From an uncultured Gammaproteobacteria bacterium (GTDB lineage: Bacteria > Pseudomonadota > Gammaproteobacteria > CAMYKB01): DNA of 33,858 bases. The position numbers and the translations under genes were made by a program. Positions within the stretch are counted from its first letter, which is position 1. The number at the start of each line of letters is the position of its first letter. Of the stretch, positions 1 through 31,546 are shown piece by piece. The notes under the pieces are model-generated. The model saw only the letters and a program-made list of their open reading frames with translations. It was not told where the DNA came from and made no database searches. The stretch spans positions 1 through 33,858 of the forward strand of contig CAMYKB010000031.1 in the NCBI GenBank assembly GCA_947258875.1, written 5' to 3'.

Positions 1-40
1 GTACATCCATTCCGATAAATAGTATGTTCGAAGCTGTCAT
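1..40 (-). CDS. IS110-family transposase, N-terminus only (runs off the left edge)
   Basis: Reading leftward from an ATG at 40-38, the 13 visible codons give MTASNILFIGMDV. The hydrophobic strand ending in a GMDV/GIDV motif is how IS110-family (DEDD) transposases begin, with the Asp being the first catalytic acid. A strong Shine-Dalgarno (GGAGG on the minus strand) sits about 5 nt upstream. The rest of the gene is outside the window, so length and integrity cannot be judged. The family call rests on a very short stretch and the good ribosome site. Any short reverse-strand ORF with a similar start is a remaining alternative. Confidence 0.55.
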   Translation of the reverse strand, partial: MTASNILFIGMDV

Positions 41-175
41 GTCGACCTCCGATCCTGTTTATTGATGGCGATGTCCTCAATCATTATGGCTCTGACGCAC
101 AGCGTTAATCCACGCTTAGGACGGAGGTCGGCACCTTCTGCGGAAAGCCATTATGTCTATGCATCCGGAAAACAT
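41..175. repeat. Non-coding stretch upstream of the IS110-like gene, with a 75-bp imperfect palindrome
   Basis: No convincing gene lies here. The arms at 82-99 and about 139-156 match at roughly 14 of 18 positions when one is reverse-complemented (left arm begins CATTATGGCT, right arm ends AGCCATTATG). A smaller hairpin (AGCGT/ACGCT, 101-116) lies between them. A second inverted pair flanks the region (CGACCTCCG near 44-52 and CGGAGGTCG near 122-130). The right arm ends in ATTATGT, one base off an attC core GTTATGT, about 20 nt before the next gene start, as in integron cassettes. It could be a worn attC site, an IS110 end, or both. IS110 elements can carry a guide RNA in this non-coding end. 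Confidence 0.4.
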
Positions 176-547
176 ATGAAAAAGATATTTTTACTACTTT
201 GCATATTCTTGCTCTCAAGTACCTCGTATGCCTCAAAAATTGGTCGAATTACCTTAGAAGACATGGAGACTAAAGCAGAGTACATCATTCTAGGGAAGGT
301 CATTGATGTAGAGCGAGACTTAGATAGAGATAAAGTTACTATAGAAATACGAAAGTTGCTAAAAGGGAATAAGCTACCTAATGAAATAGTTAGCTTTTGG
401 CTTACTTCTAGGGGTGGCTTAAAAGATTTTGATCCTGAGGTTCAGGTTGGAAACTCAATTGTAGCATTTCTGGTAGGGGAAAATGGCAAATTCAAAAAGG
501 CTTATTGGGGTAGTATTGCCATATTTACAAAACCAAATTATTTGTAG
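176..547 (+). CDS. Small secreted hypothetical protein (cassette-like gene)
   Basis: A 123-residue protein starting MKKIFLLLCIF. The first ~20 residues are a classical Sec signal peptide (two Lys, hydrophobic core, cut likely after SYAS), which is why the ATG at 176 is preferred over the longer reading from 62. The mature part is charged, has a beta-rich look (AEYIILGKVIDVERD, then VTIEIRKLLKG), and ends TKPNYL. I do not recognise the family. The pattern resembles small periplasmic proteins that begin 'A..I..GKV..V' and precede a conserved WLTSRGG-type strand. AT-rich codon use differs from the GC-richer chromosome to the right. It is followed after 14 nt by an attC-like site, suggesting a captured gene cassette. 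Confidence 0.7.
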   Translation: MKKIFLLLCIFLLSSTSYASKIGRITLEDMETKAEYIILGKVIDVERDLDRDKVTIEIRKLLKGNKLPNEIVSFWLTSRGGLKDFDPEVQVGNSIVAFLVGENGKFKKAYWGSIAIFTKPNYL

Positions 548-561
548 GCGTTAAGACTAAT

Positions 562-651
562 GCATAACAATGAACTTTCAGTTGGACGCTCCGCTTTGCT
601 GCGCGCCTCTGAGCATAGGCATTATGCCCTACATACACCATTGAGTTAAGC
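562..651 (+). repeat. attC-like recombination site, degenerate
   Basis: It starts with an inverse core GCATAAC (562-568) and ends with a core GTTAAGC (645-651) that fits GTTRRRY. The inner arms share CAATG next to each core (GCATAACAATG versus reverse-complement GCTTAACTCAATG). Total length is 90 bp, in the usual attC range. It lies directly after the preceding stop codon, where an attC belongs. The middle is GC-rich. Cores are imperfect mirror images, so it is probably worn. Confidence 0.55.
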
Positions 652-702
652 TGAATAATTGAGAATTGTGTAAATATAAATGATAAATAGTAGATTGGTC
701 GT

Positions 703-1071
703 ATGGTGCGTTTTACGGCATTAATACTAGCCTACTTTTTCTTAGTCCTGGCAATAGTGGGTATGTTTTTCCCTGGTTTGCCAACGGTTCCTTTTTTGCT
801 TTTAACAGCATGGTTTGCAGCAAGAGGATCTGGCCGTTTACATAGCTGGTTATATGCTCATCCACATTTAGGTAAATTGCTTATTGATTGGGAGCGACAG
901 GGAGCGGTATCACGTACAAGTAAAGTAACAGCAGTGTTAATGCTAATTGCTAGCTGGATTGTCATGTATCTTCGCTTAGATAATGCTTGGTGGGTGGCTG
1001 GTGTTGCCGTACTATTTGTTGCAATAGCTACGTTCTTAGTAAGTAGGCCAGAACCCAATAAACATGAGTAA
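703..1071 (+). CDS. YbaN-family (DUF454) inner-membrane protein
   Basis: 122 residues. The N-terminal half carries the DUF454 hallmark: a membrane helix, then GMFFPGLPTVPFLLL, then aromatic-rich WFAARGS and the LHSWLYAHPHLGKLLIDWE segment. Two further hydrophobic helices follow (about 74-92 and 95-113). Family members such as E. coli YbaN are about this long and have no established function, so none is given here. The gene sits between two attC-like sites, so it looks like a gene-cassette copy rather than the chromosomal one. No clear Shine-Dalgarno precedes the ATG (TTGGTCGTATG). Confidence 0.85.
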   Translation: MVRFTALILAYFFLVLAIVGMFFPGLPTVPFLLLTAWFAARGSGRLHSWLYAHPHLGKLLIDWERQGAVSRTSKVTAVLMLIASWIVMYLRLDNAWWVAGVAVLFVAIATFLVSRPEPNKHE

Positions 1072-1089
1072 CAAATATATAATATTGTG

Positions 1090-1177
1090 GCATAACAAGT
1101 CGTTTAAATCGCTGTGAAAAAACCCCCACAGCTCGGACGAGTAAAAAAGCGGCTCGCCGTTTAACTCAGCGTTATGT
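1090..1177 (+). repeat. attC recombination site of an integron cassette
   Basis: This is the best attC in the window. The inverse core is GCATAAC (1090-1096) and the core is GTTATGT (1171-1177). Typical inner boxes are present: AAGTCGTTTAA on the left and GTTTAACTCAGC on the right, the layout of classical cassette sites. CATAAC is mirrored exactly, and the following ~10 bases are mirrored with the usual spacer mismatches. Length is 88 bp. It contains a sub-hairpin GCTGTG/CACAGC (1111-1132). It begins 18 nt after the YbaN-family stop codon. Confidence 0.8.
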
Positions 1178-1214
1178 TCCCGAGCTACCCATGAAGAGTA
1201 GACACACTCAACAA

Positions 1215-1361
1215 TTAGATTAATATCTAACGAGAGGTGTCAAAATGGCAATCAAAAGAACGAAAGCATACCCAGAGTCATTCCTCCGTGAGGCAGTCAG
1301 ATTAGCAGATTTGCCTGATAGGACAGCAGTCGATGTCGCTAAAGAACTAGGGACTCATCCG
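1215..1361 (+). mobile_element. IS3-family remnant: leader hairpin and first 39 codons of orfA
   Basis: A hairpin TTAGAT-taat-ATCTAA (1215-1230) and a Shine-Dalgarno GAGAGGTG precede an ATG at 1245. The 39 codons that follow (MAIKRTKAYPESFLREAV..., ending KELGTHP) match the start of IS3-family OrfA, a small helix-turn-helix protein that binds the IS ends. The usual continuation after the HP (NQ.YNWR) is missing. The reading frame passes instead into a histidine-phosphatase gene. No orfB or right end is present, so it is a dead fragment left by a deletion. Confidence 0.75.
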
Positions 1362-1922
1362 CTGAGGAAATTTTGGGCGGCCTCCCTTACAACGGTTATC
1401 CTTCTCCTATATACAGCGCCAGGGCTTTCTTCAGAAGGAGAGGCAGCGCTCTGGAATGCACTGCGCTCGGGGGTACACATTGCGCTATTGCGTCATGCGA
1501 TCGCCCCCGGCATGGGAGATCCAGCGGATTTCACGCTTGGCGACTGCGGTACACAAAGGAACCTCTCTGACGAGGACCGCGATCAGGCTGCGCGGATCGG
1601 TATGCGCTTCCGTGCAAACGGGATTAAGACGGCACGCGTGTTGTCGCTGCCTCGAAACGGCGAGATTGCTGAAGCTCGGACCGATTCAAGCGTTATCCGC
1701 TCTCAAATCCTTTTTTGAAGACTTCGAGCGCCAGAAGCCGCAAACTCAAATGCTTCAGGAGTGGCTTGCCGGGCAAGATCTCGATCAGCTACTGGTGTGG
1801 TCACACATCAAGTGAACATCACGGCCCTAGCTGATGTCTATCCCAGTTCTGGCGAACTGGTGATCATTCACCGATCCAAAACCGGTGAAATTTCAGTTGT
1901 CGGCACCATTGAAACACATTAA
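1362..1922 (+). pseudogene. Histidine phosphatase family protein, frameshifted and fused to an orfA stub
   Basis: From 1362 the frame reads LRKFWAASLTTVILLLYTAPGLSS, a signal peptide. Then comes ALLRHAIAPG with the RH motif whose His is phosphorylated in the histidine phosphatase superfamily, and the CGTQRNLSDEDRDQAARIG block typical of it. Near 1646 the frame changes (loss of about 11 bases before CRCLETARLL). Near 1795-1800 it changes again (the expected VTHQVNITAL continues in another frame). The last segment (DVYPSSGELVIIHRS...) ends at the TAA 1920-1922. Two shifts and a lost start codon make it non-functional as a phosphatase. A fusion peptide from 1245 to 1718 could still be translated. 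Confidence 0.8.
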
Positions 1923-2054
1923 GCCTTGCTTAAGGCATAATAATGAAACATATCACTCCGTAGGAAAGAGAATATTAATTTGTTTGGTGCAGGACGCTAC
2001 TACTGCTATTGCGCCATACTACATCCAATAAACAACAAATAGACAGGGGAACCG
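1923..2054. other. Intergenic stretch, no gene seen
   Basis: Begins with a small inverted repeat (AAGCCTTGCTTAAGGC, 1921-1936) and GCATAAT, one base off an attC inverse core. I could not find a partner core before the next gene, so no attC is called. Otherwise featureless. Confidence 0.3.
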
Positions 2055-2288
2055 ATGGCGGTAAAAAAAGTAAGCATATCGCTCGACATGGTAATCGTTA
2101 TTGCCGTTGTTTTTATCATTTCATTTGGATACAACCTGTATCAGAAGTATCAATATCAGGATTTGTTGCAAGAGCATGTTGATGTTATGTGGCACGACCA
2201 GAACATGGAGATCAACTGGAAGTATGTCAAAGGTCTGCTAGAAAAGTGTGAAGGAAAGAATAAGGAAGACATCAAGGATAAGTCTTGA
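2055..2288 (+). CDS. Small single-pass membrane protein, function unknown
   Basis: 77 residues. One transmembrane helix at about residues 11-28 (MVIVIAVVFIISFGY...) is followed by a tyrosine-rich YQKYQYQDLLQEH segment and a Lys/Glu-rich tail ending KNKEDIKDKS. AGGGGA about 6 nt before the ATG serves as ribosome site. I do not recognise the family. The stop TGA overlaps the ATG of a second, truncated reading frame (TGATG at 2286-2290), so this was probably the first gene of a two-gene unit whose second gene was destroyed. Confidence 0.6.
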   Translation: MAVKKVSISLDMVIVIAVVFIISFGYNLYQKYQYQDLLQEHVDVMWHDQNMEINWKYVKGLLEKCEGKNKEDIKDKS

Positions 2289-2347
2289 TGAAGGTTATTT
2301 TTTTACTGGCTACCCCCTTTGCAGGCACGATGAATGAGTTTTTTTAG
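2288..2347 (+). pseudogene. Truncated start of a second gene, overlapping the preceding stop codon
   Basis: ATG at 2288 overlaps the stop of the small membrane protein (TGATG), the classical translational-coupling arrangement. Nineteen codons follow (MKVIFLLATPFAGTMNEFF) before TAG. The start resembles a signal peptide or a membrane segment. IS3-remnant sequence begins at about 2345, so the gene appears to have been cut off by an insertion and later deletion. The product cannot be identified. Confidence 0.35.
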
Positions 2348-2352
2348 TTAGA

Positions 2353-2480
2353 CCTGAACTAATTATTCAGGAGCGTTCAAGATGCCAAAACCGGGACCAA
2401 GAACGACGTATAAGTACAGTGAGGAATTCAAGGCAACAGCTGTCAAGCTGAGTGAATTACCGGGTGTAGCGAGTGTTTAA
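2353..2480 (+). mobile_element. IS3-family remnant: leader hairpin and first 32 codons of orfA
   Basis: Hairpin CCTGAA-ctaatta-TTCAGG (2353-2371) runs straight into the ribosome site AGGAG, with ATG at 2382. The 32 codons (MPKPGPRTTYKYSEEFKATAV..., ending LPGVASV, TAA at 2478) match the start of IS3-family OrfA proteins. It is a different lineage from the fragment at 1245, which begins MAIKRTK. Normal OrfA would continue into the helix-turn-helix. The break is near 2473 and the tail of another gene follows immediately. Confidence 0.7.
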
Positions 2481-2572
2481 AAGTAGCGCATCATATTTGG
2501 GTTGGTTCAAAAGCAGTTTGGGATGAAATTGGTGATTCTGGAGTACAGCATCTTGAATCTTTTAAGGGGTAA
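2477..2572 (+). pseudogene. C-terminal remnant of a GFA-family (formaldehyde-activating enzyme-like) protein
   Basis: In the frame ending at TAA 2570-2572, about 31 codons read ...HHIWVGSKAVWDEIGDSG then QHLESFKG. The HIWVGSKA.WDEIGD pattern is the usual end of GFA (glutathione-dependent formaldehyde-activating, Mss4-like fold) proteins. The zinc-binding Cys residues, which lie earlier in the family, are missing, so nothing functional remains. It is directly downstream of the broken orfA, which suggests IS insertion into the GFA gene followed by deletion. Confidence 0.5.
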
Positions 2573-2621
2573 CATGAGCATTACAGTAATGCACAACAAC
2601 CGCTGACGCTAATCGTTATGT
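2567..2621 (+). repeat. Candidate attC site, short and degenerate
   Basis: The core GTTATGT (2615-2621) is identical to the core of the good attC at 1171 and lies 18 nt before the next gene start, as expected for a cassette. A left arm GGGTAAC + ATGAGCATTA mirrors GTTATG and TGACGCTAAT with mismatches. A perfect 15-bp palindrome (GCATTAC-a-GTAATGC, 2578-2592) lies inside. The right half is convincing; the left half is poor. Confidence 0.45.
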
Positions 2622-2639
2622 TTCACAAAGGATTTGCTA

Positions 2640-3131
2640 ATGTCTAAATTTCAATTGGCACAGCTAAACATTGCAAAAATGAAATATTTACTGAATTCAC
2701 CGGAAATGTCTGACTTTGTTGGCAATCTTGACCGGATAAATGCCCTTGCTGAAGATGCACCTGGATTTATTTGGAGATCACAATCTGATGATGGTAATGC
2801 TGTAGTTGTTAAGTTATTTGGTTCTAACATGTTAGTAAATATGAGTGTGTGGTCAGATATTGAGCTATTACATAATTATGTATATCGCTCAGAACATTCT
2901 AAAGTGATGAGTAAGCGTAAAGAGTGGTTTGAGCGAATAGAGTATGCATATTCAGTGCTATGGTGGGCGCCAGAAAATACGAAACCTACTTTTGTAGAAG
3001 CAAAAGAAAAGCTATTAGTGTTAAAGAATAGTGGGCCAACTAATGAAGCATTTACATTTAAAAATGCTTTTCCAGCGCCAAACGCGCATTTTAATCAATC
3101 CGTTGGTGATATTGATGATCAGCGCCAATAG
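2640..3131 (+). CDS. DUF3291 domain-containing protein (gene cassette)
   Basis: 163 residues counted from the ATG at 2640, which has AAAGGA 8 nt upstream. A TTG two codons earlier is less likely. The sequence fits DUF3291: FQLAQLNIAKMKYLLNSPEM at the start, then a GFIWRSQS strand, VNMSVWSDIELLHNYVYRSEH in the centre, and VLWWAPE followed by TFKNAFPAP near the end. This is a small alpha+beta (antibiotic-biosynthesis-monooxygenase-like) fold of unknown activity. The family is common among integron cassettes, consistent with the core site upstream and an attC-like site starting at the next base after the stop. AT-rich codons contrast with the core genome. Confidence 0.85.
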   Translation: MSKFQLAQLNIAKMKYLLNSPEMSDFVGNLDRINALAEDAPGFIWRSQSDDGNAVVVKLFGSNMLVNMSVWSDIELLHNYVYRSEHSKVMSKRKEWFERIEYAYSVLWWAPENTKPTFVEAKEKLLVLKNSGPTNEAFTFKNAFPAPNAHFNQSVGDIDDQRQ

Positions 3132-3225
3132 ACATAACACATCGCTCAAAGCCCGGGACGCGCTGAGGCGCGCCCCTTATGCTAATCTACATGGACTCCC
3201 CCTGTGTCAAGCGCAGATGTTGAAC
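3132..3225 (+). repeat. Candidate attC site after the DUF3291 gene
   Basis: The inverse core ACATAAC (3132-3138) follows the stop codon directly, with CATCGCTCAAAGCCCGGG next, a typical left half. The best right end is GTTGAAC (3219-3225), which fits GTTRRRY and whose inner box mirrors AACACATCGCT approximately. CTTATGC (3176-3182) is an alternative, shorter right end. The left half is well supported; the right boundary is uncertain. Confidence 0.5.
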
Positions 3226-3444
3226 GACGTAAAGGCATAAGACTGCAGCTCTACATTCGGCCTTTTTAATTGAGTCGCTTTGACTCTGGCCATGATGACT
3301 ATTCGCTGGGGGATTTGCCTCATTCGTTAGACGGCGTTGAACGCCATTAAGCTAAACAGGCTCGTCTCCCCTCGGTCTGACCGTTATCGTCATACAACGC
3401 CTTCGCAGGACTCGGCAGGGTTACTCACTGCTGTCCCGCTAACG
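3226..3444. other. Gene-less stretch with several small palindromes
   Basis: No plausible gene on either strand. It contains a hairpin GAGTC-gcttt-GACTC (3272-3286) and the palindrome GGCGTTGAACGCC (3333-3345). An isolated GTTAGAC (3326-3332) fits an attC core but has no clear partner. This is probably decayed cassette or repeat DNA. Confidence 0.35.
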
Positions 3445-3532
3445 CGTCATTTCCGCGTAGGCGGAAATCCAGTGAACATGAATAGGCTATAAATCAATCG
3501 TTTACTGGATACCCGCCTGCGCGGGTATGACG
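3445..3532. repeat. Inverted pair of REP-like palindromes (MITE-like unit)
   Basis: Two ~30-bp units face each other. The left is CGTCAT-TTCCGC-gtag-GCGGAA-ATCCAGT (from 3445); the right is ACTGGAT-ACCCGC-ctgc-GCGGGT-ATGACG (3504-3532). Each unit is itself a hairpin, and the pair forms a larger inverted repeat around an AT-rich centre. The arms resemble the widespread GTCATTCCCGC...GCGGGAATCCAGT repeats (dRS3-like) dispersed in many proteobacteria. Confidence 0.75.
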
Positions 3533-3543
3533 ACAGTTTCGAT

Positions 3544-3707
3544 GAGATTTCCATGTAATCTAGCACAAAGGAGATCTCAGCATGAAGAAGAAGCGATACA
3601 CCGAGGAACATATCATCGGTGCCATCAAGGAACATGAGGCGGGGGTTAAGGTGGATGAGCTTTGTCGAAAACTCGGTATTTCGGCCGGCACCTTCTACAA
3701 CTGGCGC
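3544..3707 (+). mobile_element. IS3-family remnant: leader and first 42 codons of orfA
   Basis: An inverted pair GAGAT (3544-3548)/ATCTC (3574-3578) and AAAGGAG precede an ATG at 3582. MKKKRYTEEHIIGAIKEHEA and the helix-turn-helix ELCRKLGISAGTFYNWR follow, a clear IS3-family (IS407/IS2-like) OrfA start. The match stops after NWR, where normal proteins continue with SKYGG-type sequence. The open frame goes on to 3764 with unrelated residues. No orfB is present. Confidence 0.8.
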
Positions 3708-3715
3708 GGCTTCGC

Positions 3716-3829
3716 TATGCTTTCATTGAGAGCGCCCCTGGAAGTAGTAGAAACATACGCCTAACTGAAACGCGCGAAGGTAACGCCTGGATACAAAATA
3801 ACAAGGATCTGTTGTCAAACCGGTTTTGA
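3716..3829 (+). pseudogene. Possible 3' remnant of an unidentified gene
   Basis: After the orfA break, one frame stays open to TGA 3827-3829 and has a protein-like composition (RLTETREGNAWIQNNKDLL). It has no start codon of its own and no family is recognised. It would parallel the phosphatase and GFA remnants that follow the other two orfA stubs. Weakly supported. Confidence 0.2.
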
Positions 3830-3954
3830 CCTGTATTGATGTCTGCTCTGGCAGGTGGCCTTTTACGTTATTTCATCAAGACAAATTTGCCGGGCAAAGG
3901 AATAAACCCTGTCGGACAACAGTCTTGTTATAAACAATAACCACGAGGATCATC

Positions 3955-4434
3955 ATGAAATTACGCTTCTGGCATATCGTCTTTTTGTTCCCCATCAACT
4001 CCGCATGGGCTGCAGACACTCCGGCGACGCTTTCGCTGGAGACATTATCCCCTGAGGTAGCCAATCAGATCGTGGTGGCTGCCATTACAGATTGTACCAG
4101 ACGCGGTTTCAAGGTCTCCGCTGCCGTGGTCGGCCGGGACGGTAACTTGTTGGCGTTTCTGCGCAACCCGTTATCAGGCCCACATACCATTCTTACCAGT
4201 CAGAAAAAAGCCTACACCGCTGCCAGCCTGCAAGCCGCAACCTCTGCCATGGCTGACCGCCCCGACCTCAATTATGCGCCGGGTATTCTGCTCATTGTTG
4301 GCGCTGTCCCCATTAATGTTGCCGGTAAATTCTACGGTGGCGCGGCGGTGGCAGGCGCGACAACCGAAGTTGATGAACAGTGCGCACAGGCGGGCATTGA
4401 TGCGGTGAGCGAAATCCTGGAATTCGCCGACTAG
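3955..4434 (+). CDS. Secreted GlcG/HbpS-family protein
   Basis: 159 residues. A signal peptide (MKLRFWHIVFLFPINSAWA, cut before ADTPA) is followed by one GlcG/HbpS (DUF336) domain. Markers are ITDCTRRGFKVSAAVVGRDGNLLAFLRNP, the SQKKAYTAAS stretch, GILLIVGAVPI and the glycine-rich GKFYGGAAVAGA strand near the end. Members include the haem-binding HbpS and the uncharacterised GlcG. The substrate here is unknown and periplasmic location is inferred. A good ribosome site (CGAGG) lies 7 nt before the ATG. This is the first intact gene right of the mobile region and has the GC content of the core. Confidence 0.85.
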   Translation: MKLRFWHIVFLFPINSAWAADTPATLSLETLSPEVANQIVVAAITDCTRRGFKVSAAVVGRDGNLLAFLRNPLSGPHTILTSQKKAYTAASLQAATSAMADRPDLNYAPGILLIVGAVPINVAGKFYGGAAVAGATTEVDEQCAQAGIDAVSEILEFAD

Positions 4435-4551
4435 GCGATACGCCTGCTTGCACTTGAATGAGCAACTTATCGGGACATCAGATACAACAGTGTAGGCACC
4501 CGCTCGGCAGAGCCCGCAGATTGTTTGCATCATTGCTGTTCCCGATGGGCT

Positions 4552-4566
4552 GCCCGCGATGCGGGC
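4552..4566. repeat. Short GC hairpin between the GlcG-like gene and the next gene
   Basis: GCCCGC-gat-GCGGGC, a perfect 6-bp stem with a 3-nt loop, not followed by a T-run. It lies just upstream of the preferred start (4578) of the following gene, so it is a structure in the leader rather than a proven terminator. Confidence 0.5.
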
Positions 4567-4577
4567 GGCTGGTCTAT

Positions 4578-4859
4578 ATGCCGCATGTAAAGCTGGCTAA
4601 TGCGATTCGGCGCCTCACCTGTGCCAGAGGTATGCCGGTTTTATTAGTACTGATCCCGACATTTTTTTATCCTTATGCGGTTATCTTGGTGCTATTGCTT
4701 GTTACCGCGTTATTGTATTTTTGGGATAGCTTTAGTCTCGCGCCCAAGGAATTCGCAAAAGAACAGCGTGATCAGCGCGGCGCGGCATTGCTGGTATTCG
4801 CTGGCGCTTGCGTGCTGATTTGCGCCAGCGTGCTGGTGTTTTTGTTTACTCGAAACTAG
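4578..4859 (+). CDS. Small two-helix membrane protein, function unknown
   Basis: 93 residues from the ATG at 4578. Two hydrophobic helices lie at roughly 20-47 (MPVLLVLIPTFFYPYAVILV...) and 69-91 (AALLVFAGACVLICASVLVF), joined by a charged loop KEFAKEQRDQRG, ending FTRN. The frame is open back to an ATG at 4458. However, the extra 40 residues are poor in character, span a GC hairpin and contain an isolated CPRC pair, so the shorter start is preferred. No family recognised. Its stop codon overlaps the stop region of the oppositely oriented xthA by 4 bp (4856-4859). Confidence 0.55.
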   Translation: MPHVKLANAIRRLTCARGMPVLLVLIPTFFYPYAVILVLLLVTALLYFWDSFSLAPKEFAKEQRDQRGAALLVFAGACVLICASVLVFLFTRN

Positions 4860-5623
4860 ATGTTGAATTCCGCTACCACTGGTGCGTGATCGGACGGCCG
4901 CTCCAGTTTGCGCGGCTCTATATCGACGATGCTGCTGGTGCATTTCTTCGCCAGCGGCGTGCTGGCCAGAACCAGGTCGATACGCAGCCCGCGGTTACGG
5001 CGAAACCCCGCCGCGCGATAATCCCACCAGCTGAAGACATCCTCCTGCTGATCAAATTTGCGGAAACTGTCTTCAAAACCGAGGCTCAGGATTTTCTGCA
5101 GCGCCTGCCGCTCGGCTGTGCTACACAAGATTTTCTCATGCCAGGCTTCGGGGTCATACACATCGCGGTCCTCCGGCGCAATATTGAAATCCCCCAACAC
5201 CACATAGTTTGGATGCCGCTTCATATCGGCCGCAATGTATGATGTGACCTTTTCCAACCAATCCAGTTTATAGGCAAATTTTTCCGAGCCCACTTCCTGC
5301 CCATTGACGACATACAGATCCAGCACGCGTAGCTTGCCAATCGTTGCCCCCAGGATCCTGCGTTGCGGATCATCGAGGTTCGGCACATCAGTAATCACCT
5401 CGCTGGCTTGCTGCTTGCTGATGATGGCAACACCGTTATAGGTTTTTTGGCCCGAATAGACGACGTTATAACCGGCTGCCTCAATGTCCGCTACGGGAAA
5501 CTGGTCGTCGGTTTGTTTGGTTTCCTGTAACGCCAATACATCGGGTTGATTATCGGCAAGCCAGTCGAGCACATGCGGCAAGCGCACACGCAGGGAGTTG
5601 ACATTCCACGAGGCTATTTTCAT
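4856..5623 (-). CDS. xthA: Exodeoxyribonuclease III / AP endonuclease
   Basis: 255 residues from the ATG at 5623-5621. A TTG immediately before it is an unlikely start. The protein cuts DNA 5' to abasic sites and degrades 3' ends in base-excision repair. The EEP-nuclease motifs are in order: MKIASWNVNSLR (metal-binding Asn), DVLALQETK (catalytic Glu), GVAIISK, VLGDFNIAPED (Asp/Asn pair), RIDLVLAS and SDHAPVVAEF at the C-terminus (Asp-His). Length is normal for the bacterial family. The upstream SH3 gene stops only 3 nt before this ATG (TAA-ttg-ATG), so the two are almost certainly co-translated. Confidence 0.95.
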   Translation of the reverse strand: MKIASWNVNSLRVRLPHVLDWLADNQPDVLALQETKQTDDQFPVADIEAAGYNVVYSGQKTYNGVAIISKQQASEVITDVPNLDDPQRRILGATIGKLRVLDLYVVNGQEVGSEKFAYKLDWLEKVTSYIAADMKRHPNYVVLGDFNIAPEDRDVYDPEAWHEKILCSTAERQALQKILSLGFEDSFRKFDQQEDVFSWWDYRAAGFRRNRGLRIDLVLASTPLAKKCTSSIVDIEPRKLERPSDHAPVVAEFNI

Positions 5624-5626
5624 CAA

Positions 5627-6316
5627 TTAGTCCAGGGCAAAACCAGGGAAGCGCTTACTCAACCGTTTTTTGACGAGCCGCATGCCGAGGACCAGGCCCG
5701 CAATAAAGGCGGCGACGGCAAACGCAAGATAAAACCATCTGTAGTCCGCTCCGGCCTGATCAACGGACAGGGCTCGAGCCGGTTTGGCTTGCTGGACCTG
5801 GGTATTGGGCAGGGCTTGAGCTACCTTGTCTTGTTGGGCTGCCTGCCCGATCTTCTCCAGTTCTTTGGCTTGCTGATCCAGGGTTTTCTGCGCCTGCGCA
5901 AATTGTTGTTGTGTCTGGATCAGTTTTTCTTTCAATTGATTAATTTCGGCATCGGTTTCGGGTTTAGACGCATTGAGCTGGTTGCGCAGGCGAATCAACT
6001 CTTGCTCCAGTGCTTTTTTTTGCCCCTCCAGTCCCGCGACCAGCAGTTTGGCAGGGGGATCGCTGACAATGAATGCGCTTTTCACCCAACCGGTAGTTGC
6101 ATCGTCGAGAATAACTTGTGCAAACGCGCCCTTGCGTTCCAGAATTTCGACAGCCTCACCGCTTACCAGCACCTTGATACGCTCGCTACTGGTATTGGCA
6201 TCAGCATACATGCCCAGCAGTAAACGGTCAGTCACATAACCATCTTCGGCCGAGGCCGCTGCTGCAATAAACATAAGAACGACTATCAGGGTGAGTTGAT
6301 TCGGACTTGGTTTCAT
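5627..6316 (-). CDS. SH3-domain protein with coiled coil and C-terminal membrane anchor (TIGR04211/YgiM type)
   Basis: 229 residues. Signal peptide (cut likely after AAASA), then a bacterial SH3 domain of about 25-90 (YVTDRLLLGMYADANTSSERIKVLVSGEAVEIL, ending GWVKSAFIV). A Gln/Leu/Glu-rich coiled coil runs from about 95 to 160, then a linker, and a C-terminal transmembrane helix (WFYLAFAVAAFIAGLVLGMRL) with a basic cytoplasmic tail. This is the architecture of the gammaproteobacterial YgiM/TIGR04211 proteins, which are envelope proteins of unclear role. Its 5' end overlaps the stop of prlC by 4 bp, so prlC, this gene and xthA form one leftward unit. Confidence 0.85.
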   Translation of the reverse strand: MKPSPNQLTLIVVLMFIAAAASAEDGYVTDRLLLGMYADANTSSERIKVLVSGEAVEILERKGAFAQVILDDATTGWVKSAFIVSDPPAKLLVAGLEGQKKALEQELIRLRNQLNASKPETDAEINQLKEKLIQTQQQFAQAQKTLDQQAKELEKIGQAAQQDKVAQALPNTQVQQAKPARALSVDQAGADYRWFYLAFAVAAFIAGLVLGMRLVKKRLSKRFPGFALD

Positions 6317-15024: not shown

Positions 15025-16374
15025 TCAGCTGCTCAGTATACGCAAGAGATTCACGTAATCCTCATCGATGCGTATATCACTTTCACGTAATTCGGTAACC
15101 TTACGGCAAGCATGTAATACCGTCGTATGGTCACGGCCACCAAAGGCTTCACCGATTTCAGGCAGGCTATGATTGGTGAGTTCCTTAGCTAACGACATTG
15201 CTATTTGCCGTGGCCGGGTTATCGACCGGCTGCGTCGTGGAGAGTGCAAATCAGAAACACGAATCTTGAAATATTCAGCCACCGTTTTCTGGATATTATC
15301 AATGGTTACTAGCCGGTCTTGCAGTGCCAATAAATCACGTAAGGCATCTTTAGCAAAATCCAGAGTGATGGGTCGCCCGGTAAACTGTGAATTAGCGATA
15401 ATCCTGCGTAATGCTCCCTCTAGTTCACGAATATTCGAGCGTATACGTTTGGCAATAAAAAAAGCGACTTCACTCGGTAAATCTACATGCGCCTGTTCCG
15501 CTTTACTCTGCATGATGGCAACTCGGGTTTCCAGTTCCGGGGCCTCAATGGCCTGAGTCAGTCCCCAGCCAAACCGGGATTGCAGCCGTTCTTCAAGACC
15601 TTCGACCTCCTTAGGATAGCGGTCGCAAGTAAGGATAATTTGTTGCTGACCTTCGAGCAGGGCGTTGAAAGTGTGAAAAAACTCCTCCTGGGAACGTTCC
15701 TTGCCTGCGAAGAACTGGATATCATCGATCAACAGGGCGTCAACCGAGCGGTAGTAGCGCTTGAAATCGTTGATCGCGTTATGTTGCAGCGCCTTTACCA
15801 TGTCAGCAACAAAGCGTTCAGAGTGCAGGTAAACCACCTTGGCGTATGGATTTTGTGCCACTATATGGTTGCCTAAGGCATGCATCAGATGGGTTTTACC
15901 CAGACCAACACCGCCATATAGGAAAAACGGGTTATAGGCTACACCCGGGTTGCTGGCGATCTGCAAGGCGGCAGCCCTGGCAAGTTGATTTGATTTACCC
16001 TCGACGAAATTGTCGAATGTGAAATTTGGGTTGAGGTTATTTGTGAATTTATTGCTACTCGAAGCGACCGGCTGGGGTTCATCCCGGCTAACCTCGGTAG
16101 TCGTCTTTTGCGGGACTCTTACAGCCGCGCTACTGCCGACCTCAAGAATTACCCGCCGCGCCTGATCGCGACAAAGATCCTCAATCAGTTGATTAATGCG
16201 CTCATAGTGGTGATCGCGTACCCAGTCCAGTACGAAGCGATTGGGTGCCAGCAGGCGCAAGTCATGCTCCTCTTCGATCGCATGCAAGGGCCTGATCCAG
16301 GTATTGAGTTGCTGATCGGAGAGTTCACTCTCGAGTTGCTCAACGCATTGCTGCCATAACGGGCTTGCAACCAA
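15025..16374 (-). CDS. dnaA: Chromosomal replication initiator DnaA
   Basis: 449 residues. DnaA binds DnaA boxes and melts the origin. Domain I begins [16 protein letters not shown], with [10 protein letters not shown] as in E. coli. Domain II is a short Ser/Gln/Asn linker (about 85-115). AAA+ domain III has Walker A GGVGLGKT (154-161) and Walker B LLIDD (214-218). DNA-binding domain IV ends with [15 protein letters not shown] (412-426). The only start in reach is TTG at 16374, since an in-frame stop lies 18 nt upstream. This fits tight control of initiation, though the start is inferred. Confidence 0.98.
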
Positions 16375-17297: not shown

Positions 17298-18971
17298 ATG
17301 GATAATCAACGCACATTCTTATACATAGCGCTGGGCCTTATTGTGTTCATGATTTGGCAAGCCTGGCAACGTGACTACGGGCCCAAGCCGGTAGCAGAAG
17401 TTGAAACCATCAGCACGAGTCAACAACAAGCCCCGGCAGCCGCACCAGAGGACATTCCTGATGCTGCAGAGGCCGTGCGCAGCGATATGCCGGTGAGCGC
17501 ACCAACAAGACAAGACGTAAGCAGTCGGCAGGTAAGGGTAATAACCGATACCCTGGATATATTGATAGACACTCGCGGTGGCGACATTGTGCAAGCGGAT
17601 TTACTGACCTATCCGCTGGTTGTCGATCAGCCTGATAAACCGTTCCGCCTTCTTAGTAACGAAGGCGCAAGCGTGTATGTAGCGCAATCAGGGTTGATAC
17701 ACGACAAAACGGGTGATCGTGATGTCAGTAAACTGTCCCCATCACATTACGCAATTTACGACGCCGCACAAACCGAGTATCGACTTGCTGACGGAGCAGA
17801 AGAGTTAACAGTGCCGCTGACCTGGGAATCGGCCAACGGTATTAAAGTCACCAAGACCTATACCTTCAAGCGCGGTCAATTTCTACTGGAGCTGGATTAC
17901 CAGCTTGAAAACCAAAGTACGCAGCCTTGGATCGGCCGTCAATATCGCCAGTTACGGCATGGTGACGTACAGAAAAAAGATAAGAAGCGGTTTATCTATA
18001 CATTTACTGGAAGTGCGTATTACAACGGTAAATATCAAAAACTGCAGTTCGACGACATGGAAGATGAGGCCCTGGCCGAAGAAGTCACCGGCGGCTGGGT
18101 ATCGATACTTCAACACTATTTTGTTTCAGCCTGGATACCCCAGGGTGACGAAAAAGAATTTTTCTATACCCGCGTCGTGAAAGACAACGGAGCGACTCGC
18201 TACATCATCGGTATGCGCTCACAGCCTATCACTGTTGCTCCAGGCGAAAATGGACAGCTGCATACCCGCTTGTATGTTGGGCCCAAGATACAAAAAGACC
18301 TGGCGCCGCTCGCCAATAGGCTTGAGCTAACGACCGATTACGGTATCTTCACGGCACTCTCCAAGCCGCTATTCTGGTTGCTGGATAAAATTCACAGTGT
18401 AGTAGGTAATTGGGGCTGGGCTATCATTATCCTGACGCTGATTATCAAGTTGTCGTTTTACAAGTTATCGGAAGCACAACATCGCTCCATGGCTAAAATG
18501 CGTAATCTACAACCTCGCATGGTCGCGATGAAAGAACGTTTCGGTGATGACAAGCAGAAGTTCCAGCAGGCGATGATGGAGCTTTATAAAAAGGAGAAGG
18601 TTAATCCCTTAGGTGGTTGTCTGCCGTTGCTGATCCAAATGCCGGTATTCATCTCTTTGTATTGGGTGTTGCTGGAAAGTGCGGAGATGCGGCAGGCGCC
18701 ATTTATGTTGTGGATTAACGATCTCTCCAGCAAAGACCCGTACTATGTGTTGCCTGTGTTGATGGGTATCACCATGTTCATCAGCCAGAAGCTAAACCCA
18801 CAACCCGCCGACCCGGTACAGGCCAAGATCATGATGATGTTGCCGCTGGTCTTTACCGTGTTCTTCGCGTTTTTTCCTTCAGGCCTGGTGTTGTACTGGT
18901 TCTTCAATAACCTGCTAACCATTATTCAGCAATATGTGATCACTCGACGCATTGAGCAAGCTGCCCACTGA
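17298..18971 (+). CDS. yidC: Membrane protein insertase YidC
   Basis: 557 residues, normal for the Gram-negative type. The N-terminal helix (LYIALGLIVFMIWQAW) is followed by a large periplasmic beta domain (to about 340). The conserved C-terminal insertase core then follows: WGWAIIILTLIIKLSFYKLSEAQHRSMAKM (helix 2 and coiled-coil region), NPLGGCLPLLIQMPVFISLYWVLLESAEMRQAPF and FFAFFPSGLVLYWFFNNLLTIIQQ. It inserts inner-membrane proteins, notably AtpE and AtpB encoded at 27784-28933. Confidence 0.98.
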   Translation: MDNQRTFLYIALGLIVFMIWQAWQRDYGPKPVAEVETISTSQQQAPAAAPEDIPDAAEAVRSDMPVSAPTRQDVSSRQVRVITDTLDILIDTRGGDIVQADLLTYPLVVDQPDKPFRLLSNEGASVYVAQSGLIHDKTGDRDVSKLSPSHYAIYDAAQTEYRLADGAEELTVPLTWESANGIKVTKTYTFKRGQFLLELDYQLENQSTQPWIGRQYRQLRHGDVQKKDKKRFIYTFTGSAYYNGKYQKLQFDDMEDEALAEEVTGGWVSILQHYFVSAWIPQGDEKEFFYTRVVKDNGATRYIIGMRSQPITVAPGENGQLHTRLYVGPKIQKDLAPLANRLELTTDYGIFTALSKPLFWLLDKIHSVVGNWGWAIIILTLIIKLSFYKLSEAQHRSMAKMRNLQPRMVAMKERFGDDKQKFQQAMMELYKKEKVNPLGGCLPLLIQMPVFISLYWVLLESAEMRQAPFMLWINDLSSKDPYYVLPVLMGITMFISQKLNPQPADPVQAKIMMMLPLVFTVFFAFFPSGLVLYWFFNNLLTIIQQYVITRRIEQAAH

Positions 18972-30004: not shown

Positions 30005-31546
30005 ATGCAACTCAACCCAACTGAAATCAGCGATCTGATCAAGAAGCGTATCGAAGGCTTCGAAGTCGCCGCCGAAGCGCGTACCGAAGGTACCGTGGTC
30101 GGTGTGACGGACGGTATCGTACGTGTCCACGGACTGGCCGATGTCATGGCCGGCGAGATGGTCGAATTTCCTGGCAACACCTACGGCATGGCGCTCAACC
30201 TGGAACGCGACTCGGTCGGTGCAGTGGTGCTGGGCGATTACAAGCACATCTCCGAGGGTGACACGGTTAAATGTACCGGGCGCATCCTCGAGGTGCCGGT
30301 GGGTCGTGGTCTGTTGGGCCGCGTGGTCGACTCGCTGGGCAGTCCGATCGACGGCAAGGGTCCGATCGAAGCTGAAGGCACCTCGCCCATCGAAAAAATC
30401 GCCCCCGGCGTGATCGAGCGTAAGTCAGTGGACCAGCCGGTACAGACCGGTTTGAAGTCCATTGATGCCATGGTGCCAATCGGTCGCGGACAGCGTGAAT
30501 TGATTATTGGCGACCGCCAGACGGGTAAAACCGCGGTGGCCATCGATACCATCATCAATCAAAAGGGTACCGGCGTTAAATGTATCTATGTGGCGGTTGG
30601 CCAGAAGGCATCCTCGATCGCCAATGTGGTGCGCAAACTGGAAGAGCACGGCGCGCTGGAGCACACTATCATTGTCGTGGCATCAGCCGCGGATTCGGCC
30701 GCCATGCAATACATTGCGCCGTATTCCGGTTGCTCCATGGGTGAGTACTTCCGTGACAATGGTGAAGATGCGCTGATCATTTATGACGACCTGACCAAGC
30801 AGGCCTGGGCCTACCGCCAGGTATCCTTGCTACTGCGCCGCCCGCCGGGCCGTGAAGCCTATCCCGGTGATGTGTTTTACCTGCATTCCCGTTTGTTGGA
30901 GCGTGCATCGCGTGTCAACGTCGACTATGTCGAAAAGATCACTGGCGGTAAGGTGAAAGGCAAGACCGGTTCGTTAACCGCACTGCCGATTATTGAAACC
31001 CAGGCTGGTGACGTTTCCGCATTCGTACCCACTAACGTGATTTCCATTACCGATGGCCAGATCTTCCTCGAGAGCGATTTGTTCAACGCCGGTATTCGTC
31101 CCGCGATCAACGCCGGCTTGTCGGTATCACGTGTCGGTGGTGCCGCGCAGACCAAAATCATTAAAAAACTCGGTGGTGGTGTGCGTCTGGCGCTGGCGCA
31201 GTATCGTGAACTGGCGGCGTTTTCGCAGTTTGCGTCCGACCTTGATGAAGCCACCCGCAAACAGCTGGAACGCGGCAAGCGCATTACCGAGTTGATGAAA
31301 CAGCCACAATACTCGCCGTTGAACGTCGCCGAGATGGCGTTCTCATTGTTCGCTGGTAACGAGGGTTACCTGGACGACGTTGATGAGAACAAGATTGTCG
31401 ATTTCGATGCTGCCCTGCACAGCTATTTGCGCTCTCAGCAGACTGACTTGCTGGGCAAGATCAACGAGAACGGCGATTACAACGACGAAATCGAACAGGC
31501 CATGCGTAAGGCGCTGGACGACTTCAAAGCCAATAACGCTTACTAG
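30005..31546 (+). CDS. atpA: ATP synthase subunit alpha
   Basis: 513 residues, as in E. coli. P-loop GDRQTGKT (169-176). The RVGGAAQ stretch near 373 holds the catalytic arginine finger. It is the non-catalytic nucleotide subunit of F1. Shine-Dalgarno GAGG lies before the ATG. Confidence 0.99.

Follow-up and report, generated by a model that had tools for sequence, protein, structure and literature searches.

Organization of the Locus

The window analyzed here, i.e., the whole stretch of 33,858 bp, represents an entire contig (C31) of a draft genome consisting of 67 contigs (3.01 Mb), so that position 1 is a contig end and not a biological border. The host is apparently a gammaproteobacterium, judging from the gene order and the nearest relatives. 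The left end of the window is occupied by small genes, attC-like sites and remnants of insertion elements, followed by a chromosomal anchor gene (Table 1). The three genes recognized in an earlier note on this DNA (the secreted, the YbaN-like and the DUF3291 proteins) were confirmed, and so was the AT-rich nature of the short genes: the GC content was 0.37–0.43 over most of the stretch vs. approximately 0.52 in the backbone. Within positions 1–6000, the array combined low GC with a positive GC skew in contrast to the backbone with its higher GC and negative skew, as expected for head-on foreign genes.

Table 1. Features identified at the left end of the window.
Feature	Position	Strand	Evidence and remarks
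IS110/IS1111-family element, broken-off end	1–154	-	First part of the transposase (MTASNILFIGMDV...), truncated by the contig end, and the non-coding end upstream of it; minus-strand translation
Secreted hypothetical protein, 123 aa, cassette ORF	176–547	+	ORF call
attC, mildly degenerate, R' = ATTATGC	562–627	+	Covariance model 18.8 bits, E = 1.2e-3 in 5 kb
DUF454 (YbaN-like) membrane protein, cassette ORF	703–1071	+	PF04304, 7.6e-31
attC, well formed, two-arm layout as in C41:546–626	1090–1177	+	Covariance model 19.6 bits, E = 7.5e-4 in 5 kb; fold z = -2.5
IS3-type orfA remnant, N-terminal HTH only	1245–1360	+	HTH_Tnp_1, E = 0.048, weak, below family cut-off; fused to histidine-phosphatase frame
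Histidine-phosphatase-like pseudogene, frameshifted	1360–1925	+	Similarity to NCBIfam PRK06193, 5.9e-9; frame switch near 1714
Small membrane hypothetical ORF, 77 aa	2055–2288	+	No family above cut-off
Second IS3-type orfA N-terminal remnant	2382–2480	+	HTH_Tnp_1, E = 0.012, sub-threshold
Collapsed attC, R'' and R' without inner stem; also 5' junction of the DUF3291 cassette	2591–2621	+	Covariance model 16.1 bits over 31 nt
DUF3291 cassette ORF	2640–3131	+	PF11695, 1.5e-51
Terminal half-attC retaining R''-L'' but not the R' side	3132–3182	+	3132–3225 scored 7.2 bits, not significant; R'' (ACATAAC) is complementary to GTTATGT, the 5' core of this cassette
Third IS3-type orfA remnant, immediately beyond the array	3582–3764	+	HTH_Tnp_1, 2.6e-14
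xthA (exonuclease III family), chromosomal gene anchoring the distal end	4856–5626	-	Usual neighbor ubiD located on C41 beside intI

The contig is cut on the left inside an IS110/IS1111-type element, and the assembly was probably broken at this repeated element. Its 154 bases were 75% identical to C27:20385–20534(-), where the ORF reads ...NILFIGVDVHKDN; the element was assigned to the IS110 family from this motif, its body lying outside the contig. The three IS3-type orfA stubs (at 1245, 2382 and 3582) are different from each other and all cut at about the same point after the N-terminal HTH, two of them scoring below the family cut-off. A palindromic dispersed REP- or MITE-like repeat of approximately 115 bp was present at 3423–3540, with 38 more full or partial matches in the genome (best identity 97%). 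The Rfam search of the window gave nothing at gathering scores and two sub-threshold matches to miRNA families, both located on this palindromic repeat (3445–3532).

Detection and State of the attC Sites

The sites were scored with a covariance model constructed from 29 attC sites of class 1 plasmid integrons and of intI-flanked chromosomal arrays from other genomes, none of them belonging to the genome under study. The stems of the model are the R and L boxes, which showed strong covariation (85 double-change cells vs. 38 in shuffles). A second alignment, including the sites of the same genome, was made, but no model was built from it because it would be partly circular. Simpler detectors were rejected: the sites of this genome, several of which have R'' GCATAAC or ACATAAC, escaped a regular expression for generic attC; of two palindrome scorers, one lacked specificity, and the other found 1090–1177 but ranked an unrelated coding stretch at 30193 above it, which was the reason for using the covariance model.

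Four attC-like palindromes had been proposed previously, and they fared differently. The site at 1090–1177 passed the covariance check, and its bottom strand folded better than shuffled sequences. The site proposed at 562–651 was present as well, albeit with its real end at 627, with R' ATTATGC instead of GTTATGC and with a fold no better than shuffles (z = -0.9). From 2567–2621 only the two outer boxes have survived, joined at 2591–2621, so that it matched merely as a remnant devoid of the internal stem. The sequence 3132–3225 could not be upheld as an attC (E = 0.99): a good 5' half (R''-L'') is present at 3132–3160, while the 3' half is missing. The complete attC geometry (boxes paired in the order R''-L''-(loop)-L'-R', cores AAC/GTT) was observed at 1090–1177 and, except for one core base, at 562–627, in contrast to 2591–2621 and 3132–3225. 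The rest of the 33.9-kb window had no attC match above 11.2 bits with the same model, the three best matches thus all falling within a single stretch of 2.1 kb. For 19-bit matches the genome-wide E was only about 0.5, and therefore 562–627 and 1090–1177 rest on their position and context besides the score.

A true cassette is recognizable by the agreement between the R'' box of its attC and the bases that follow its 5' crossover point. Such a match of the 5' junction (TTRRRY) was read from the sequence for the DUF454 cassette (TTATGC/GCATAAC), the DUF3291 cassette (GTTATGT/ACATAAC) and all three cassettes on the contig C41 described below; the previously noticed 18-nt distance from the core to the DUF3291 start was correct. 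The region 1178–2590 breaks this junction rule, being filled with the frameshifted phosphatase-like gene and two of the IS3 orfA stubs, a content in keeping with rearrangement and decay.

The occurrence of the same genes without attC in relatives had been named in advance as counter-evidence, and this was observed in part. The secreted gene had a single homologue among 274 genomes of the class (G164:C18), and the 1.5 kb around it contained three attC-like matches (20.0, 15.4 and 12.9 bits). In G001:C57 an attC scoring 44.7 bits immediately follows a DUF3291 homologue, and the homologues in G255 and G047 are located near an attC, while most other DUF3291 homologues are not. No attC was found beside the nearest homologues of the DUF454 gene, which is mostly a plain chromosomal gene in the relatives; it was, therefore, either captured or present in the array for other reasons.

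Integrase Platform and Gene Order

No intI is present within the window, in agreement with the earlier note, which had also suggested looking for it elsewhere in the genome. An intact integron integrase gene was indeed found on C41 (1652–2614), scoring 508.7 bits with TIGR02249 against a cut-off of 265 and keeping R, K, H, R, H and Y at the positions of IntI1 R146, K171, H277, R280, H303 and Y312. Three cassettes with strong attC (42, 37 and 24 bits), all scoring higher than the two best sites of the window, are oriented away from intI and lead to the left end of C41, where a fourth cassette is cut off. The junction of the first cassette, GTTAGGC, lies approximately 140 bp from the intI start (candidate attI side). 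The third cassette after intI (C41:203–529, minus strand) codes for a member of the barstar family (1.6e-14); an obvious barnase gene is not seen beside it.

The flank of C31 reads gyrB, LemA, GIDE-like, prlC, SH3-domain gene, xthA, array, and that of C41 reads array, intI, ubiD, parA. Both contigs are cut inside an array with their facing ends correctly oriented, and the alignment of their attC sites showed a common two-arm layout. Overlapping parts of the order prlC-xthA-ubiD-parA, all in one orientation, were found in five relatives belonging to the same class. The nearest, G048, has gyrB, LemA, GIDE-like, prlC, SH3, xthA and ubiD, the latter two almost touching, and neither attC nor an integron was found at its xthA–ubiD locus. 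In G035 the order is prlC-SH3-xthA-phzF(-like)-ubiD, in G019 xthA and ubiD are on one strand 8.3 kb apart, in G044 xthA adjoins the same parA, and in G002 prlC adjoins ubiD. This order is not universal, since in several relatives (of the same class at closest) xthA and ubiD are far apart or on separate contigs. Neither ubiD nor xthA was found beside intI in the other integron loci examined, so that the xthA–ubiD location cannot be regarded as ancestral on this basis. No other partner was found for either contig end. Arrays of attC are also located at other contig ends of this genome (C27, C36, C24, C20 and C34), and topology alone would, therefore, not have chosen C31, while synteny does; pairing of C41 with any of these five was rejected on synteny. 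Synteny and orientation thus suggest that C31 and C41 are physically joined and form one integron between xthA and ubiD.

The genome is rich in integron remnants. A second integron is represented by the right end of C53 (decayed intI with stops, C53:4457–4792) and the left end of C36, which have a 26-bp overlap read by eye; C36:1–3000 begins with cassettes and several attC (36, 25, 23 and 19 bits). More attC arrays or sites are located at contig ends at C27:1–6600, C24:800–2450, C20:62380 and C34:40017, and decayed pieces of intI on C11, C17 and C38.

Origin of the Cassette Cluster

The observed attC sites with their decay, the intact intI and the gene order make it very probable that a sedentary chromosomal integron, with its platform on C41, is inserted between xthA and ubiD and that the region 176–3182 is its decaying distal tail. 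The description of the locus as eroded integron cassettes therefore stands: it includes one well-formed, one mildly degenerate and two collapsed attC sites, together with IS remnants and a pseudogene. Its classification as a CALIN is not supported, because the contig ends within the array, the intact intI with its attI-side cassettes lies at the end of C41, and the gene order of the five relatives places C41 beside C31. A CALIN consists of at least two clustered attC sites, which are present here (562–627 and 1090–1177), with no associated integrase, while here an integrase is associated, provided that the C41–C31 join is correct.

If the cluster at xthA were nevertheless independent and without an integrase of its own, the C41 intI would belong to a different array. 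The window taken alone, lacking intI, would fit such a true CALIN, as would the several array pieces and decayed intI copies in the genome, among which orphan clusters may exist; but the window ends inside the array, the relatives' gene order puts ubiD, the neighbor of intI, next to xthA, and both the orientation and the attC subtype match between C31 and C41, making this explanation improbable. Still less credible is an origin unrelated to integrons, i.e., chance palindromes between small horizontally acquired genes. Two of the four proposed sites failed or are remnants, a single 19-bit match is not rare at the genome scale (E about 0.5), and DUF454 homologues occur without attC; against this, the three best matches of 33.9 kb share one strand, are clustered within 2.1 kb and are spaced from the stop codons as in cassettes, the 5' junctions match R'' within the cassettes, and the same gene families are found beside attC elsewhere.

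When an array is functional, the bottom strand of attC folds and is bound by the integrase, which excises cassettes as circles and re-inserts them at attI. For the integron between xthA and ubiD, the platform on C41 would comprise the intact intI, the attI side and the first three cassettes, and the assembly would have broken inside the array, on the C31 side within the IS110/IS1111-type copy. At the tail, only 1090–1177 still looks fit for recombination, and perhaps 562–627. The damaged sites have presumably lost their function: since 2591–2621 and 3132–3182 lost half or all of the inner stem, the last genes are probably stuck.

Orientation Relative to Replication

The distance of the cluster from oriC, previously given as about 12 kb, was close to the value of approximately 13 kb obtained from dnaA (15025–16374, minus strand) and the skew minimum near 16.5–17.5 kb, where the GC skew changes its sign; yidC starts at 17298 on the plus strand. 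From the dnaA/yidC position and the skew switch, the fork would cross the array from right to left, against the rightward direction of the cassettes, which would place the attC bottom strands on the lagging-strand template. The array, judging from its position, may thus run head-on to replication, which is perhaps unusual. Inversion of the Vibrio array reportedly resulted in instability. It is conceivable, albeit rather doubtful, that the locus represents a natural case of the same instability, i.e., a chromosomal integron approximately 13 kb from oriC that lies in the disfavored orientation, has kept its integrase intact and is losing its distal tail. The opposite orientation is favored in large chromosomal integrons, a rule drawn from large arrays (PMC11023631). 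If the orientation holds, the rule that the recombining strand of large integrons stays on the leading-strand template could be tested at this locus in a natural setting; failing that, the locus is an ordinary chromosomal integron of a gammaproteobacterium with several integron remnants.

Comparison with Known Systems

The authors of IntegronFinder warned that a complete integron may look like a CALIN when it is split in a draft assembly (PMC9024848). The present case would be an example of draft genomes creating false orphan cassette clusters, which can be rejoined by the gene order of relatives. From its contig alone the locus resembles a CALIN (a cluster of attC sites lacking an integron-integrase; PMC9024848) in having two attC and no intI, but intI is intact on another contig, which probably adjoins, and its absence would be an assembly effect. 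The IS110/IS1111-type end abutting a cassette is reminiscent of the IS1111-attC group (ISKpn4, ISPst6; PMC11187229 and references therein), except that only one end of the element is present in the contig and that no attC adjoins the similar end on C27. With the sedentary chromosomal integrons of Xanthomonas (beside ilvD; PMC12444791) and the Vibrio superintegron the locus, if rejoined with C41, shares a full-length intI beside a housekeeping gene, the attI side, an array of small genes, mostly of unknown function and each ending in attC, as well as ISs within the array and its decay. In contrast to them, it is probably situated between ubiD and xthA, and, unlike in large chromosomal integrons (PMC11023631), its orientation appears to be head-on to replication. 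The best reading is, therefore, an integron of a known kind, i.e., the ordinary chromosomal type with an eroded tail.
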